Shown: positions 2,989 through 14,968 of the stretch, one piece after another | Numbering within the stretch: position 1 is the first letter of the stretch | Layout of the letters: each line of letters opens with the position of its first letter | IMG/VR virus record: IMGVR_UViG_3300025070_000275 | Coordinates: 1-21,651 of that record | DNA: 21,651 bases | Direction: 5' to 3' (one strand) | Origin: a virus | Notes under the pieces: model-generated | What the model was told of the DNA's origin: nothing | Databases searched by the model: none | Seen by the model: only the letters and a program-made list of their open reading frames with translations | Position numbers and translations under genes: made by a program

Positions 2989-3025
2989 GGGGGAAACTGG
3001 GGAAACTGGGGAAACTGGGGAAACT
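2989..3025 (+). repeat. Right 9-bp repeat array with G-quadruplex motif, abutting the ninB start
   Basis: The unit GGGGAAACT occurs four times without gaps (2990-3025), the first after an extra G at 2989. This gives four tracts of at least four Gs separated by five-base AAACT loops, a textbook intramolecular G-quadruplex motif on the coding strand. The ATG of ninB begins at 3028. The last GGGG (3017-3020) is the only candidate Shine-Dalgarno sequence for ninB, so folding of the mRNA could block its translation. Confidence 0.85.
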
Positions 3026-3027
3026 GA

Positions 3028-3450
3028 ATGGATACATCACACCGCTGGCTTGTTGACACTAAAGACAAGATGAACTTTTTTATCGCTTTCGTTACTACAC
3101 AGTTTGGTGACGGCAAGAAGATACTGTACGCAATCAAAGACACCACCCGCAGTGACAGGCAAAACAACGCTATGCACCTGTGGTTCCGGCAGATAGCACA
3201 GGAGCTAAACGACGCGGGATACTGGGTACGACATCCCTTTAGTGACAAACTGGAGATACCCTTTACGGAGGTGCTGGTCAAGGAAACCCTCTACAAGCCC
3301 ATCATTAAGTCCATGTACAACAAAAGCTCCACAGCTAATGTAACCCCCAGGGAACTCTCAGAAGCCGCTGAGGTGCTAATTAGGTGGCTCTCAGAGCATA
3401 AGGGCGTATATGTACCCTTCCCCCAACAACTAAAGGATCAACTAAAGTGA
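3028..3450 (+). CDS. ninB: NinB-like recombination protein
   Basis: NinB (lambda Orf) binds single-stranded DNA and assists phage recombination, replacing RecFOR-type functions. The 140-residue length matches the family. The signature RSDRQNNAMHLWF (41-53), followed by a helix and N-D-A-G-Y, is typical, as are the helical C-terminus and a final segment around GVYVPFPQQ. The gene lies downstream of the RepA-like ATPase and before a methyltransferase and ninG. The start is directly after a G-rich repeat array that leaves only GGGG as a ribosome binding site. The stop overlaps the next gene's GTG start (GTGA), which implies translational coupling. Confidence 0.82.
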   Translation: MDTSHRWLVDTKDKMNFFIAFVTTQFGDGKKILYAIKDTTRSDRQNNAMHLWFRQIAQELNDAGYWVRHPFSDKLEIPFTEVLVKETLYKPIIKSMYNKSSTANVTPRELSEAAEVLIRWLSEHKGVYVPFPQQLKDQLK

Positions 3451-4148
3451 AAGTTCTTGATTTATTTGCAGGGATAGGCGGATTTACGCTCGGGCTGGAG
3501 CGGTCAGGATTTGAGGCAGTCGCCTTTTGTGAGATAGATCCATACGCTCAGAAGGTATTAAAAAAGAACTGGCCGGAGGTGCCAATCTATGACGATGTAC
3601 GAACAATCACAGCAGAGCGATTGGCTGCAGACGGAATTAGAGTTGATGTCATCACAGGAGGATTCCCCTGCCAAGACATCTCAGTTGCAGGAAGCCAGGC
3701 AGGAATCGAGGGCGACCGAAGTGGGCTGTGGTCAGAGTGCGCCCGTTTACTTGGGGAGCTTCGACCCCAATACGCCATCTTTGAAAACGTCACAAACCTG
3801 CTTAATGGAGAACGGGGAGCTTGGTTTAAGCGAGTTCTCTGGGACATTTCCTCGCTCGGGTATGATGCGGAGTGGCACTGTATACCAGCTTCCGAACTTG
3901 GCGCGCACCATCACAGAGATCGGATCTGGATTATTGCCTACCCCAACAGCACACAACGCCAAAGAGGGAGCTTATCCATCGGAGTACACAAGAAAGACGC
4001 CAACATTATCGGCTCAAGCGGGTGGCAAACTGAACCCAGCCTGGGTCGAGTGGCTAATGGGGTTCCCAGTCAATCATACAGACTTAAATGCTTAGGCAAT
4101 GCAGTTGTTCCGCCAATACCAGAGCTTATCGGGAGAGCTATAAAGTGA
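3447..4148 (+). CDS. DNA (cytosine-5) methyltransferase, compact phage type
   Basis: The enzyme transfers a methyl group from S-adenosylmethionine to cytosine C5, probably to shield phage DNA from restriction. The 233 residues show motif I DLFAGIGGFTLGLE (4-17), motif IV with catalytic Cys75 in GGFPCQDIS, motif VI ENV (113-115), motif VIII HHHRDR (154-159), and motifs IX/X GRVANGVP and LGNAVVPPIPELIGRAI (from 216). Only about 45 residues separate motif VIII from motif IX, so the target recognition domain is very short. The GTG start overlaps the ninB stop (GTGA), with AAAGGA upstream. A long ORF is nested in the +1 frame of this gene (separate entry). The stop overlaps the ninG start, again as GTGA. 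Confidence 0.9.
   Translation: MKVLDLFAGIGGFTLGLERSGFEAVAFCEIDPYAQKVLKKNWPEVPIYDDVRTITAERLAADGIRVDVITGGFPCQDISVAGSQAGIEGDRSGLWSECARLLGELRPQYAIFENVTNLLNGERGAWFKRVLWDISSLGYDAEWHCIPASELGAHHHRDRIWIIAYPNSTQRQRGSLSIGVHKKDANIIGSSGWQTEPSLGRVANGVPSQSYRLKCLGNAVVPPIPELIGRAIK
3589..4095 (+). CDS. Possible overprinted gene nested in the methyltransferase gene (+1 frame)
   Basis: A 168-codon ORF wholly inside the methyltransferase gene, same strand, +1 frame. A strong Shine-Dalgarno sequence, GGAGGT (3575-3580), lies 8 bases before its ATG. The product shows, in order, SQEDSPAKTSQ (about 22-32), SLKTSQ, a stretch reading FSGTFPRSGMMRSG, then GSGLLPTPTA, and near the end LNPAWVEWLMGFP. From memory, these marks recur in poorly understood proteins annotated beside phage C5 methyltransferases. 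They lie over the enzyme's own conserved motifs (PCQDIS, DRIWIIAYPN, GRVANGVP), so they could instead be a passive shadow of a constrained frame. I list it as a candidate gene; function unknown. Confidence 0.4.
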   Translation: MTMYEQSQQSDWLQTELELMSSQEDSPAKTSQLQEARQESRATEVGCGQSAPVYLGSFDPNTPSLKTSQTCLMENGELGLSEFSGTFPRSGMMRSGTVYQLPNLARTITEIGSGLLPTPTAHNAKEGAYPSEYTRKTPTLSAQAGGKLNPAWVEWLMGFPVNHTDLNA

Positions 4149-4570
4149 GACTAAAAAGAACAGCAGCAGACCATTGGTTTAGCCGATGCGTCCGCATACG
4201 AAACGACTTCAAATGCCAAGGTTGTGGCGCACAGTACGAGTCAAACAGCACAGGGCTACACTGCTCGCACTACTTTACACGCGCTAAGAAGGGCATACGG
4301 TACGACGGAATGAATGCCTTTGCTCACTGCTACGGCTGTCACCAGAAATACGGCAGCAATCCTGACTACTTTGTTCGCCACTACATCGACGAGTACGGCG
4401 AGGGTGCCCTTGAGTTATTAAGGGAGAAGGCCGAGGATGTGATGCTGGGCAAGCGCATGAACAAAGAGCAGAAGGAAATAGCCAAGCATTACAGGGAAGA
4501 GGCCGCCCGTATGGAGAATGATAGGGCGGCAGGTGTAGCTGGCTGGTTAGAGTTTGAAAGCTGGGACTAA
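4145..4570 (+). CDS. ninG: NinG/Rap-like recombination endonuclease
   Basis: Lambda NinG (Rap) is a structure-specific nuclease that cuts recombination intermediates. From the GTG start the product has 141 residues. A zinc-binding and nuclease-like core is visible: CQGC (24-27), HCSHY (39-43) and CYGCH (62-66), with RAKKGIRYDGMN between, matching the family layout of CxxC, HCxH and CxxC. The C-terminal half is helical and charged, with KRMNKEQKEIAKHYREE. An ATG at 4088 in the same frame lies inside the methyltransferase gene; the GTG at 4145 is preferred because GGGAG lies 9 bases upstream and it forms a GTGA overlap with the preceding stop. Its TAA overlaps the stop of the convergent late gene. 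Confidence 0.8.
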   Translation: MRLKRTAADHWFSRCVRIRNDFKCQGCGAQYESNSTGLHCSHYFTRAKKGIRYDGMNAFAHCYGCHQKYGSNPDYFVRHYIDEYGEGALELLREKAEDVMLGKRMNKEQKEIAKHYREEAARMENDRAAGVAGWLEFESWD

Positions 4571-11707: not shown

Positions 11708-12355
11708 TCACGGCGTATAGAAGATTGTTTCTTCTGGGTGCTTCTGGGCATCTAACGCAATAGCATCTGATAGGTGCCTATCTGCAATTGCAAAATACTC
11801 AGGAGCTGACGTACCGCCCGTCTCGCCTCTTTCTCTTGCTAACAGCGCAACAGCCAAATGAATTACCGGCATTGCAGGCACTGTCATTTGATCGTTGTTG
11901 TCAGTTAAATCATCTTGTCGCTTTACGCAGGTAAAACGAATTGTGTACGCAGCATCAGGCGTTGGGTATACATCAATCTGGGTATCTCCGCTGGCATCTA
12001 CACCGTTGTAGGTGTAATACGTTGGCGACCCCTTTAGCTCTTCAGATATGTAACGCTTTTCGTCAAAGAACGTAGACGTCTTGTATTCCATAAAACGATT
12101 GGATGTATCGTTTATAACGCTTAGTTCTTTAATTCTGTTTTGGCCGCCGGTCAGCGCGTAAGTGTAAACATCATCGCTTGTTGTAATGGTGATGGTCGTT
12201 CTTAATCCAGACCAATCCCAAGAGTCTTCAACGATACGCTTAGCGTCATTAACATAAGCACTAACCATCTTGCCGTAGGTGGTAGAGGAAACAGAACTAA
12301 CTTCCTCTTCCCTCATCCTGCGCAACACATTATTTACTAAATTCAAATAGGTCAT
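11708..12355 (-). CDS. Head-tail adaptor protein (gp4/gp11-like), 215 aa
   Basis: Adaptors of this type bind under the portal ring and receive the nozzle. The N-terminal part MTYLNLVNNVLRRMREEEV is the helical start common to phage adaptor and connector proteins; KMVSAYVNDAKRIVEDSWDW (about 29-48) continues the helical pattern, followed by beta strands (TTITITTSDDVYTYAL) and a long C-terminal helix (VIHLAVALLARERGE, then AIADRHLSDAIALDAQ). The size and its place directly before the nozzle-like gene agree with this. The start overlaps the preceding stop as ATGA and the gap to the next start is only 7 bases. It could equally be named tail tubular protein A-like. Confidence 0.68.
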   Translation of the reverse strand: MTYLNLVNNVLRRMREEEVSSVSSTTYGKMVSAYVNDAKRIVEDSWDWSGLRTTITITTSDDVYTYALTGGQNRIKELSVINDTSNRFMEYKTSTFFDEKRYISEELKGSPTYYTYNGVDASGDTQIDVYPTPDAAYTIRFTCVKRQDDLTDNNDQMTVPAMPVIHLAVALLARERGETGGTSAPEYFAIADRHLSDAIALDAQKHPEETIFYTP

Positions 12356-14622
12356 CTTTTTACCCTATCGGCAATCATTCTTGTAAGGAAGCCACCCATC
12401 ATATCATTTGCCGTTTGAGGCTTAATTAATGACGGAACTTCTGGCAGCTGATAATTAAGTCGAGCATAGAACGGCGAAAACATACTGCTGCCACCGCCAC
12501 CGCCGCCACCACTGCTAGGAGGAGGTGCTATCGGATCTTCAGGTGGTATAAACCCATCTTCAGGTGGCATTGCCGGATCATCGTCAGATGGCACTTCTGG
12601 ATCATCAGGCGGCGCTTCCGGATCATCAGGCGGCGCTTCCGGATCATCATCAGGCGGTCGTACAAATTCAGGTGGCGGAATAAATTCAGGTGGTGGCAGC
12701 TCATCATCAATAACGCCCGGCAAAGGGGTTATTTCAGGCGGTATTGCCGGATCATCATCAGGTGGAGCTACAGGCTCATCAGGCGGTGCTACCGGGCCTT
12801 CAGGAGGCGTTACAGGCTCATCAGGCGGTCGTACAAATTCAGGCGGTGGCACAAACTCAGGCGGCAACATATCATCAATAACGCCTGGCAAAGGTGTTAC
12901 CTCGGGTGGCGCTGCCGGATCGTCTGAAGGAGGTTCTAGCTCAGGTGGTGGTATAAACTCAGGAGGAAATTCAGGAAAATCAGGATCATCTCCTCCTGGT
13001 AACGGGCCTTCAAAAGGATCATCAAAAATATCATCAGGATCACCAACATCAGGCGGCGGTACAAACTCATCTGGCGGAGGTGCTGCAGGATCGTCACTAC
13101 CCGGTAAAGGTGTTACTTCAGGTGGTGTTACAGGCTCATCTATAGGCGGTGTTGTAGGCGGCTGTTCAGGCGGCGGTACAAGCTCATCAGGAGGTGTTGT
13201 AGGGTCATCAATAGGGCCCGGTAAAGGTGTTACTTCAGGTGGCTGCTCAGGTGGCGGCACAAATTCATCAGGAGGAGGTGCTGTAGGGTCATCAGTACCG
13301 GGCAAGGGCGTTACTTCAGGTGGCTCTTCAGGGTCATCTGTTGGCGGTGTTGTAGGTGGCTCTTCAGGATCATCTTCATCATCAGTAGGGACTTCAGGTA
13401 AAGAAGGTATTGGTTGTCCAGCCTCTTCTATCGCGTCTAGAATTCGCTGACGTATTTCAGGATAACCAGGTGTTCCTACAAGAATATTCGCTAACCAATC
13501 AGGTATACTATTCCCGTACCCGCCTAAAACAACACTAGTAATAACAGCAGTAGATACGTCCGGATTTTCAATTGCACCTGTAACGTAGTCAATCAGGTCT
13601 CCAATTTTGTTCTTAACAAAATCACCGGCTTCTCCAGCAGTGTTAACAAGAATCTCACCTATGTCAGAAAGTACTTCTCCGTAATCACCCTCTTCAAGAG
13701 CGCCTTGAATACCGCTTTCTCTGACAATACCTCCTATTGTGTTTAATATTTCACCAACACTAGGTAAGAAAATAATACCAGCCGTGGGAAGCCAGTCAGG
13801 AATTTCAATGCCACGTATATATGGCTTAATAGCGTCAAGAATTCCTTGTATGGTTTCTCCCCCTGCAGGTGCATCCGGGCCTATAATGTCTTTAATAGAA
13901 ACAGATACGCCATAACCACCGGGAAGAACCACTAATTCTTCATCTGGTTTAGTAGGGTGAGGTACTGTAGCTATTCCGCCACCAGTAAGATTAGCAGCGG
14001 CTTGTTCTAAAAACTGGCTAGTATATTCCCCTGTAGGCGCTTCAAGCTCAGGTATTTGTTCTGGATTATTTATAAGCACGTCAAGAATGTTTCGAGCTTC
14101 TGTTACAGACTGTACGACTTGTATGCCTTCAACAAGCTCTGTAAGAGCTTCAAGACTAATTGATCCTAGCTGTTCTTGAATAGGAACTTCGGGAGCTATT
14201 TTTATTGAGTTTGCTCTTAAAATTTCTTGTATAGAAGGATCAGCCCAAAGAGATTGCAGCTCATTTTGACCAATGCCGCCCAGCAATGCAGTAAGGCGAG
14301 CAAGCAAACCGTCTTGATTTTCTAAGTCTTCAAACTCAGGAATTGAAGGCATAGAAGAAAGCATGCCTGAAGTCGGGGCGTCAATCTCCATCATGTTTAA
14401 AGGTGTTCTGCCTTGAAGCTGAGATAGAAAGTTTGTTGTTTGTGCGGCCCTAGCTGCATCAACAACTCTAGCAATCTCAAGTGGATTAGTAATCGAGTAC
14501 TGCCCAAACAAACCACCGCCATTTACGCTTCCTTCCTGGAAAACTTCTTCTGCGGTTTGACCCATTTCTTCTGGAATGGGTGTACTACCAATTTCCCCTA
14601 AAAGATCTTCTAATGTTGCCAT
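12352..14622 (-). CDS. Proline-rich repeat protein, 756 aa, probable virion component
   Basis: I do not recognise a named family. Residues 1 to about 410 are acidic and helical with Gly- and Ile-rich parts (GDFVKNKIGDLIDYVTGAI). Residues about 411-697 are an extreme Pro/Asp/Glu region: the motif PPE-V/I-TPLPG occurs five times exactly and once in a decayed form, between blocks such as DEFVPPPE and DDPEAPP. A poly-Gly linker (PPSSGGGGGGGSS) follows, then a C-terminal domain of about 45 residues. A polyproline-II rod linking two domains, such as a fibre, whisker or tail spike shaft, is a reasonable guess from composition. The ATG at 14622 is chosen over a GTG at 14649 since it follows the previous stop directly. 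The stop overlaps the adaptor start. Confidence 0.65.
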   Translation of the reverse strand: MATLEDLLGEIGSTPIPEEMGQTAEEVFQEGSVNGGGLFGQYSITNPLEIARVVDAARAAQTTNFLSQLQGRTPLNMMEIDAPTSGMLSSMPSIPEFEDLENQDGLLARLTALLGGIGQNELQSLWADPSIQEILRANSIKIAPEVPIQEQLGSISLEALTELVEGIQVVQSVTEARNILDVLINNPEQIPELEAPTGEYTSQFLEQAAANLTGGGIATVPHPTKPDEELVVLPGGYGVSVSIKDIIGPDAPAGGETIQGILDAIKPYIRGIEIPDWLPTAGIIFLPSVGEILNTIGGIVRESGIQGALEEGDYGEVLSDIGEILVNTAGEAGDFVKNKIGDLIDYVTGAIENPDVSTAVITSVVLGGYGNSIPDWLANILVGTPGYPEIRQRILDAIEEAGQPIPSLPEVPTDDEDDPEEPPTTPPTDDPEEPPEVTPLPGTDDPTAPPPDEFVPPPEQPPEVTPLPGPIDDPTTPPDELVPPPEQPPTTPPIDEPVTPPEVTPLPGSDDPAAPPPDEFVPPPDVGDPDDIFDDPFEGPLPGGDDPDFPEFPPEFIPPPELEPPSDDPAAPPEVTPLPGVIDDMLPPEFVPPPEFVRPPDEPVTPPEGPVAPPDEPVAPPDDDPAIPPEITPLPGVIDDELPPPEFIPPPEFVRPPDDDPEAPPDDPEAPPDDPEVPSDDDPAMPPEDGFIPPEDPIAPPPSSGGGGGGGSSMFSPFYARLNYQLPEVPSLIKPQTANDMMGGFLTRMIADRVKR

Positions 14623-14623
14623 C

Positions 14624-14968
14624 TTATTTTTTCCAGTTAGCCAGGCCACGCAGCCCGAAGGATGCTGCTACAGCAGCCCCTAAAAAACCTTTGTACCAGT
14701 CAGGCATCTGATCTAGCACCCGAAAACCTTCCATTACCGTAGGCACCATGCTGGGAAAGAACGCAAGGATGCAAGGGATGGAAAACAAAATCGTAAACCA
14801 CTCGTCTTTCCATGAATTTGCCGCATTACTCGCATGTATATTTTCCCAGTTACTATCTTGCTTAATCGCTTCTAGCTTTCTTTCGTGTACCGCTCTTTTC
14901 TCTTCCGCTTTACGCTCAAGATGACCACCAACCAAAGAGACTATTGGCCCGAGAAGTTGCTGAATCAT
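14624..14968 (-). CDS. Holin-like protein (GTA_holin_3TM type)
   Basis: A 114-residue protein with three hydrophobic stretches: about 3-16 (QQLLGPIVSLVGG), 59-76 (FTILFSIPCILAFFP) and 90-106 (WYKGFLGAAVAASFGL). Between the first and second is a charged helix (HLERKAEEKRAVHERKLEA) and WENIHASNAANSWKDEW. This order matches the '3TM holin' family known from gene transfer agents and tailed phages, which forms lesions in the inner membrane at lysis. Its neighbours, three other small membrane proteins, support a lysis module. The start overlaps the preceding stop as ATGA. Confidence 0.72.
   Translation of the reverse strand: MIQQLLGPIVSLVGGHLERKAEEKRAVHERKLEAIKQDSNWENIHASNAANSWKDEWFTILFSIPCILAFFPSMVPTVMEGFRVLDQMPDWYKGFLGAAVAASFGLRGLANWKK

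Follow-up and report, generated by a model that had tools for sequence, protein, structure and literature searches.

A predicted two-chain C5-cytosine methyltransferase of a virus with its specificity half overprinted on the catalytic half

The window, a stretch of 21,651 nucleotides comprising the IMG/VR virus record IMGVR_UViG_3300025070_000275, carries a C5-cytosine methyltransferase (MTase) gene which is flanked by a NinB-like gene upstream and a NinG-like gene downstream, with a GTGA start-stop overlap at either end (Table 1). Another open reading frame (ORF) lies wholly inside the MTase ORF, in the +1 frame, such that 507 nt are shared. The MTase frame is denoted frame 0, and the products of frame 0 and the +1 ORF are called alpha and beta, respectively. 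The upstream NinB/Orf-like gene yielded 22.9 bits against PF05772, slightly below the cut-off of 23.8, and the downstream NinG/Rap-like gene probably uses a GTG start, judged from the sequence, that overlaps the MTase stop.

Alpha matches PF00145 over residues 1–172 with 182 bits (cut-off 22, E 2.4e-53), and a match to the M.HhaI profile extends over motifs I–VIII. The FPCQ and ENV sequences of the chain show no variation in 15 relatives. The PF00145 match stops at position 168 of the 324 in the profile, with neither a motif IX nor a recognition domain in the same chain, and motif IX is absent from frame 0 of the window MTase. No model exists for the +1 product in Pfam or NCBIfam, and no relation emerged when the profiles of the +1 and frame-0 chains were compared with each other, so that beta does not represent alpha copied into a second frame. 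The original prediction, of a 168-codon ORF overprinted at 3589–4095 with GGAGGT 8 bases before its ATG, and with the marks SPAKTS, GSGLLPTPTA and LNPAWVEWLMGFP in its product, was accurate in each of these positions.

Table 1. Features of the methyltransferase locus, in window coordinates
Feature	Position	Strand	Remarks
Upstream NinB/Orf-like gene	3028..3450	+	phrog_72 E 5e-9
Alpha, C5-cytosine methyltransferase, frame 0	3447..4148	+	233 aa, GTG start
Alpha motifs I–VIII	about 3447–3962	+	PF00145 and M.HhaI profile match
Shine-Dalgarno GGAGGT of beta	3575..3580	+	ends 8 bases before beta ATG
Beta, putative recognition half, +1 frame	3589..4095	+	168 aa, ATG start, PHROG_1008 E 2.1e-26
Beta N-part, ~110–115 aa	3589..3933	+	over DNA for MTase residues 48–162 (motifs IV–VIII)
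Beta putative recognition module LPTPTAHNAKEGAYPSEYTRKTPTLSAQAGGK, +1	3934..4029	+	frame 0 there is an open linker
Putative C5 motif IX in +1, LNPAWVEWLMGFPVNHTDL	4030..4086	+	weak PDB alignment (E about 1) and one-frame pattern
Alpha motif X	about 4080–4145	+	GNAVVP conserved
Beta stop TAG	4093–4095	+	
Downstream NinG/Rap-like gene	4145..4570	+	phrog_5034 E 3.1e-25

A long ORF inside a conserved gene could be a mere shadow, in which constraint on the enzyme frame alone keeps a +1 ORF conserved without its being translated, and the database entries are over-predicted. The +1 opening in the window extends over 177 codons, compared with a median of about 61 in synonymous-codon shuffles of the window gene, none of which (0/300) equalled it, and the shadow reading is further countered by recoding the window gene and its relatives with synonymous codons, which left the +1 frame open across the span in 4 of 2,220 cases. 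Eighty viral relatives were picked by the enzyme frame alone, so that the choice was not biased, and inspection for +1 stops found a long opening across the homologous span in all 80, with insertions lengthening some to more than 280 codons. For loci L074, L078 and L080, a stop at nt 151 shifts the +1 start downstream. The beta ATG is kept in all 74 distinct genes, with 41% expected after synonymous recoding, and a Shine-Dalgarno match of at least 4 bases precedes it in 84% of them, as against 49% after recoding.

Selection on the two frames can be separated at the silent sites of the enzyme. Pairwise third-position divergence in frame 0, for 71 distinct genes, is 0.57 at codons 1–45, 0.26 at codons 48–170, 0.08–0.16 at codons 193–216 and 0.56 at codons 217–233, and the drop and the recovery coincide with the +1 ATG and the +1 stop, respectively. 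Conservation of the enzyme's silent sites is thus limited to the +1 ORF, contrary to what a shadow would leave. When changes in 235 pairs were classed by their effect in both frames, with rates given per 1000, those silent in the enzyme and altering the +1 product amounted to 163 upstream from the +1 ORF, 47.5 and 5.5 inside it and 136 downstream, while changes silent in both frames reached 197 and 139 inside the ORF. The ratio of the former class (SN) to the latter (SS) is 0.24 over the beta N-part and 0.04 over motif IX. Changes creating a +1 stop occurred at 173 and 279 per 1000 outside the ORF and at 9 and 0 inside it. This per-frame substitution test on homologous loci reveals purifying selection on the +1 frame beyond that exerted by the enzyme frame.

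The most extreme values were obtained for a set of modules of about 35 aa, starting with [W/L/F]PTP, which recur between motifs VIII and X. The window +1 product has one such module and those of its relatives have several. Among 728 module pairs, chosen by DNA identity only (0.55–0.9) from modules that were themselves cut out by their +1 pattern, identity was higher in +1 than in frame 0 for every pair and the differences fell most commonly at the +1 third position, again in conflict with a shadow. At 70–80% DNA identity, the rates per 1000 opportunities were SN 2.4, SS 178, NS 138 and NN 8.4, giving SN/SS of 0.013 and NS/SS of 0.77, and +1-silent changes creating a frame-0 stop were seen at 0 of 3,464 opportunities. 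These values indicate extreme purifying selection on the +1 frame, with frame 0 being nearly free but held open. Over the recognition region, alpha is an almost free linker which needs only to remain open in order to reach motif X. Moreover, the AHNAKE module of the window is 73–79% identical in many products whose N-parts are only 27–40% identical to that of the window, which suggests, at the sequence level, that modules are exchanged between products.

A profile search for the +1 family in GTDB genomes and IMG/VR viral contigs, taking the best 80 matches of each scan, produced 157 loci from Proteobacteria, Actinobacteria, Bacillota, Planctomycetes, Chloroflexota, Bacteroidota and one archaeal MAG. 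The MTase frame is open right across the +1 ORF in 155 of these 157 loci. The family is uncommon per genome: two phylum samples, of 346 and 299 genomes, contained it in 7 and 4 genomes, respectively. The original prediction linked the marks in the +1 product with separate proteins annotated beside phage C5 MTases, and this part of it did not hold: a free-standing +1 product away from an MTase gene was found in none of the 157 loci drawn from the best 80 of each scan, and the annotated entries that were examined (Stenotrophomonas phage SOVA965 in locus L001, BLOOM_57 and Leona gp42) are the same overlapping ORF. Tblastn matches of the +1 product in phages and plasmids, some of which were examined, lie mostly under annotated methyltransferases.

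Within those 157 loci, the constant association with the MTase gene is what a shadow would produce; nevertheless, given the silent-site and dual-frame data, we reject over-prediction, which has become scarcely credible. Both frames behave as protein-coding and both are under selection, and the claim that one stretch of DNA encodes two conserved proteins is borne out by the silent-site, dual-frame, module and recoding data.

The MTase frame is interrupted in the module region, with the +1 frame open, in just two of the 157 loci from the best 80 of each scan, L236 (at 3281) and L233 (at 1819), and these stops may reflect an error in sequencing or a frame-0 linker that has begun to decay.

The nature of the second protein emerged from the manner in which enzyme parts are distributed over the two frames. 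Motif X is in frame 0 in the window and in most relatives. For mycobacteriophage Eagle and Arthrobacter phage Leona, frame 0 ends after motif VIII and the +1 ORF carries modules followed by IX and X; their products Eagle gp77 and Leona gp42 match PHROG_1008 (E 1.7e-79 and 4.7e-65, respectively), with further matches to the C-terminal part of the full-length MTase profile PHROG_116. Streptomyces phage Darolandstone carries modules in +1 and IX and X in frame 0 while, in L258, L273–L280 and others, the first module or modules are in +1 and later modules, IX and X are in frame 0. Finally, in L310, motifs I–VIII, one module, IX and X share a single frame and the +1 ORF is absent; the AlphaFold2 model of this protein (pLDDT 85) matches full-length M.HhaI (Z 23.1, rmsd 3.2, 254 residues aligned). 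In L301 no +1 module was detected by pattern and one was found on reading the sequence. Motif IX, located by a pattern that found no match in 36 loci, is confined to one frame in 266 of 268 loci, and IX and X are split between frames without duplication. These layouts, together with the confinement of motif IX to one frame, imply that the two frames constitute one C5 enzyme that is divided differently according to lineage.

The C-terminal half of beta is therefore best described, on sequence criteria, as the predicted recognition modules and motif IX of a C5 MTase and not as an unrelated new family. This identification rests on Eagle, Leona and L310, the direct PDB match for motif IX being weak: a profile search aligned motif IX of the DRM methyltransferases 4onq/4onj to LNPTWVEWLMGFPIGWTD of the +1 product with E about 1. 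Eagle gp77 and Leona gp42, each searched against PDB as a single sequence, gave no matches. PHROG_1008, which is matched by the window +1 product, Eagle gp77, Leona gp42 and BLOOM_57, is named 'DNA methyltransferase', a name that is silent on the matching proteins being an overlapping recognition half that lacks the catalytic motifs I–VIII.

An unrelated protein, for example with an anti-restriction or regulatory role, could have been overprinted by chance on the MTase gene, and the strong protein-level constraint, the separate start and an N-part lacking a known homologue are compatible with this. We nevertheless judge it very improbable because the +1 product never occurs away from the MTase in the loci from the best 80 of each scan, because it carries a motif IX that is missing from frame 0 and present in one frame only, and because the same kind of module occurs in frame with I–VIII, IX and X in L310, L258 and others. 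The original suggestion that a second family arose by overprinting thus survives for the N-part only, about 110 residues over motifs IV–VIII, and fails for the C-terminal half. The N-part may be truly new sequence; no counterpart of its ~115 aa is known in single-frame enzymes.

Along the DNA, the parts follow each other as they do in an ordinary C5 enzyme, and lineages differ in where frame 0 is resumed. Both properties would also fit programmed frameshifting, whereby a single polypeptide passes from I–VIII in frame 0 to the modules and IX in +1 and back to X in frame 0. This mechanism requires two shifts, and it is at odds with the separate ORFs of Eagle and Leona. Furthermore, the constraint on +1 sets in well ahead of the modules, at an ATG preceded by a Shine-Dalgarno sequence, and continues through motifs IV–VIII, such that a shift after motif VIII provides no explanation. 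We consider frameshifting very improbable.

We conclude that the locus most probably encodes a two-chain C5 MTase with an M.EcoHK31I-like layout, in which the specificity half is overprinted on the catalytic half. Alpha would provide the catalytic core, with motifs I–VIII and X, and beta, translated from its own Shine-Dalgarno sequence and ATG, would contribute the N-part, the recognition module and motif IX. The two chains would be made from one message with two starts, and the enzyme would be completed in trans by the binding of beta to alpha. The modules of beta would then choose the target, with several modules conferring several targets, and the methylation may serve the phage against host restriction. 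Several observations count against the two-chain reading. In 'mixed' loci, both frames contain modules and frame 0 already has IX and X, leaving no evident part for the short +1 product. The direct PDB match for motif IX is weak, the N-part lacks a single-frame counterpart, and the model of the +1 chain alone is poor (pLDDT 63). A PDB fold search with this model gave no match, and three viral fold matches below 1e-3 were obtained, one of which is named SAM-dependent methyltransferase.

The small chain of M.EcoHK31I is likewise encoded within the large one in another frame, as beta is inside the alpha gene. The likeness extends, when compared by motif layout alone, to the location of I–VIII and X in one chain and IX in the other. 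M.EcoHK31I (YGGCCR) is a C5 methyltransferase that occurs naturally as two polypeptides (Lee, Kam and Shaw 1995, as described in PMC3404938), the large chain containing motifs I–VIII and X and the small one IX (PMC3404938), while M.AquI is split in the variable region and carries IX–X in the small chain (PMC3404938). Artificial fragments of several C5 enzymes show mutual complementation (PMC3404938; PMC5944983). The window system differs from M.EcoHK31I in that the TRD of the latter is described in the large chain whereas the constrained recognition sequence of the window is in the small (+1) chain, relatives of which often carry tandem modules. In addition, M.EcoHK31I belongs to an R-M system whereas no restriction gene was recognised next to the window MTase. 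The resemblance to M.AquI (CYCGRG) lies in an alpha chain with I–VIII and a beta chain with the distal recognition region and IX, and X is likewise in beta in Eagle, Leona and about ten others; in contrast, the window chains overlap by 507 nt, with X located in alpha and the recognition module entirely in beta. The multispecific C5 methyltransferases of SPbeta-type Bacillus phages are similarly phage-borne and, between motifs VIII and IX, likewise carry recognition units that are short and arranged in tandem, but all their units are in the enzyme frame whereas here the first module is in +1.

The overlapping MTase layout is widespread in phages and prophages, and an overlap with both proteins conserved extends over well over 100 loci and several phyla. 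Long same-strand overlaps of this kind are rare and difficult to prove, and this case is provable by sequence. Relatives of the MTase gene carried by the P2-like phage ev129 are present, as DNA, in 66 of 5,426 E. coli genomes, and in the intact E. coli case examined (L354) a +1 ORF encoding modules and motif IX has been left unannotated. Annotation often covers one frame only, as in a RefSeq E. coli prophage, or designates both as 'DNA methyltransferase' and, therefore, specificity has perhaps been sought in the wrong frame.

With some reserve, we lean towards a more general view, namely that these loci represent a large and mostly unannotated class of phage and prophage C5 enzymes which keep their specificity in an overprinted +1 frame, in exchangeable cassettes of ~35 aa each with its own target, frame 0 serving as an open linker. 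Cassette swaps would re-target the enzyme, and parts (modules, IX and X) would have moved between frames. The two-chain layout with a separate motif IX was already known from M.EcoHK31I; the constraint on the recognition region in +1, the tandem exchangeable modules, the shifting division between frames and the breadth of the class are new. We found no report of such overlapping genes in phages in the literature searched, which included few subscription journals. If the second-frame module sets the target, the arrays constitute a natural set of C5 recognition units and illustrate how a protein domain can change its reading frame.

Some loci show further rearrangements. In L116 (1143–2643), from a Synergistaceae MAG, MTase motif I is in-frame with the +1 modules and the remaining MTase is in the other frame, and an insertion resembling the HNH type lies between motif I and the modules. 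For Mycobacterium phage Jinglebell (L003, 1350–2250), compared with Spikelee (L004), the reading frame changes after LLVRG, so that the enzyme and the +1 frame are both disrupted, and a similar two-piece MTase match occurs in several deposited phages. The annotated Jinglebell genes 75 and 76, on the opposite strand at this locus, are probably artefacts.

Two short tandem arrays are located upstream from the NinB-like gene of the window, at 2890–2933 and 2990–3026, with units of the AATACCCAG type and GGGGAAACT in four perfect copies. Elsewhere in the window, at 12352–14649 on the minus strand, there is an ORF of 765 aa with proline and acidic repeats (PPEEPP, DDPEAPP) and DNA repeats of 18–81 bases.
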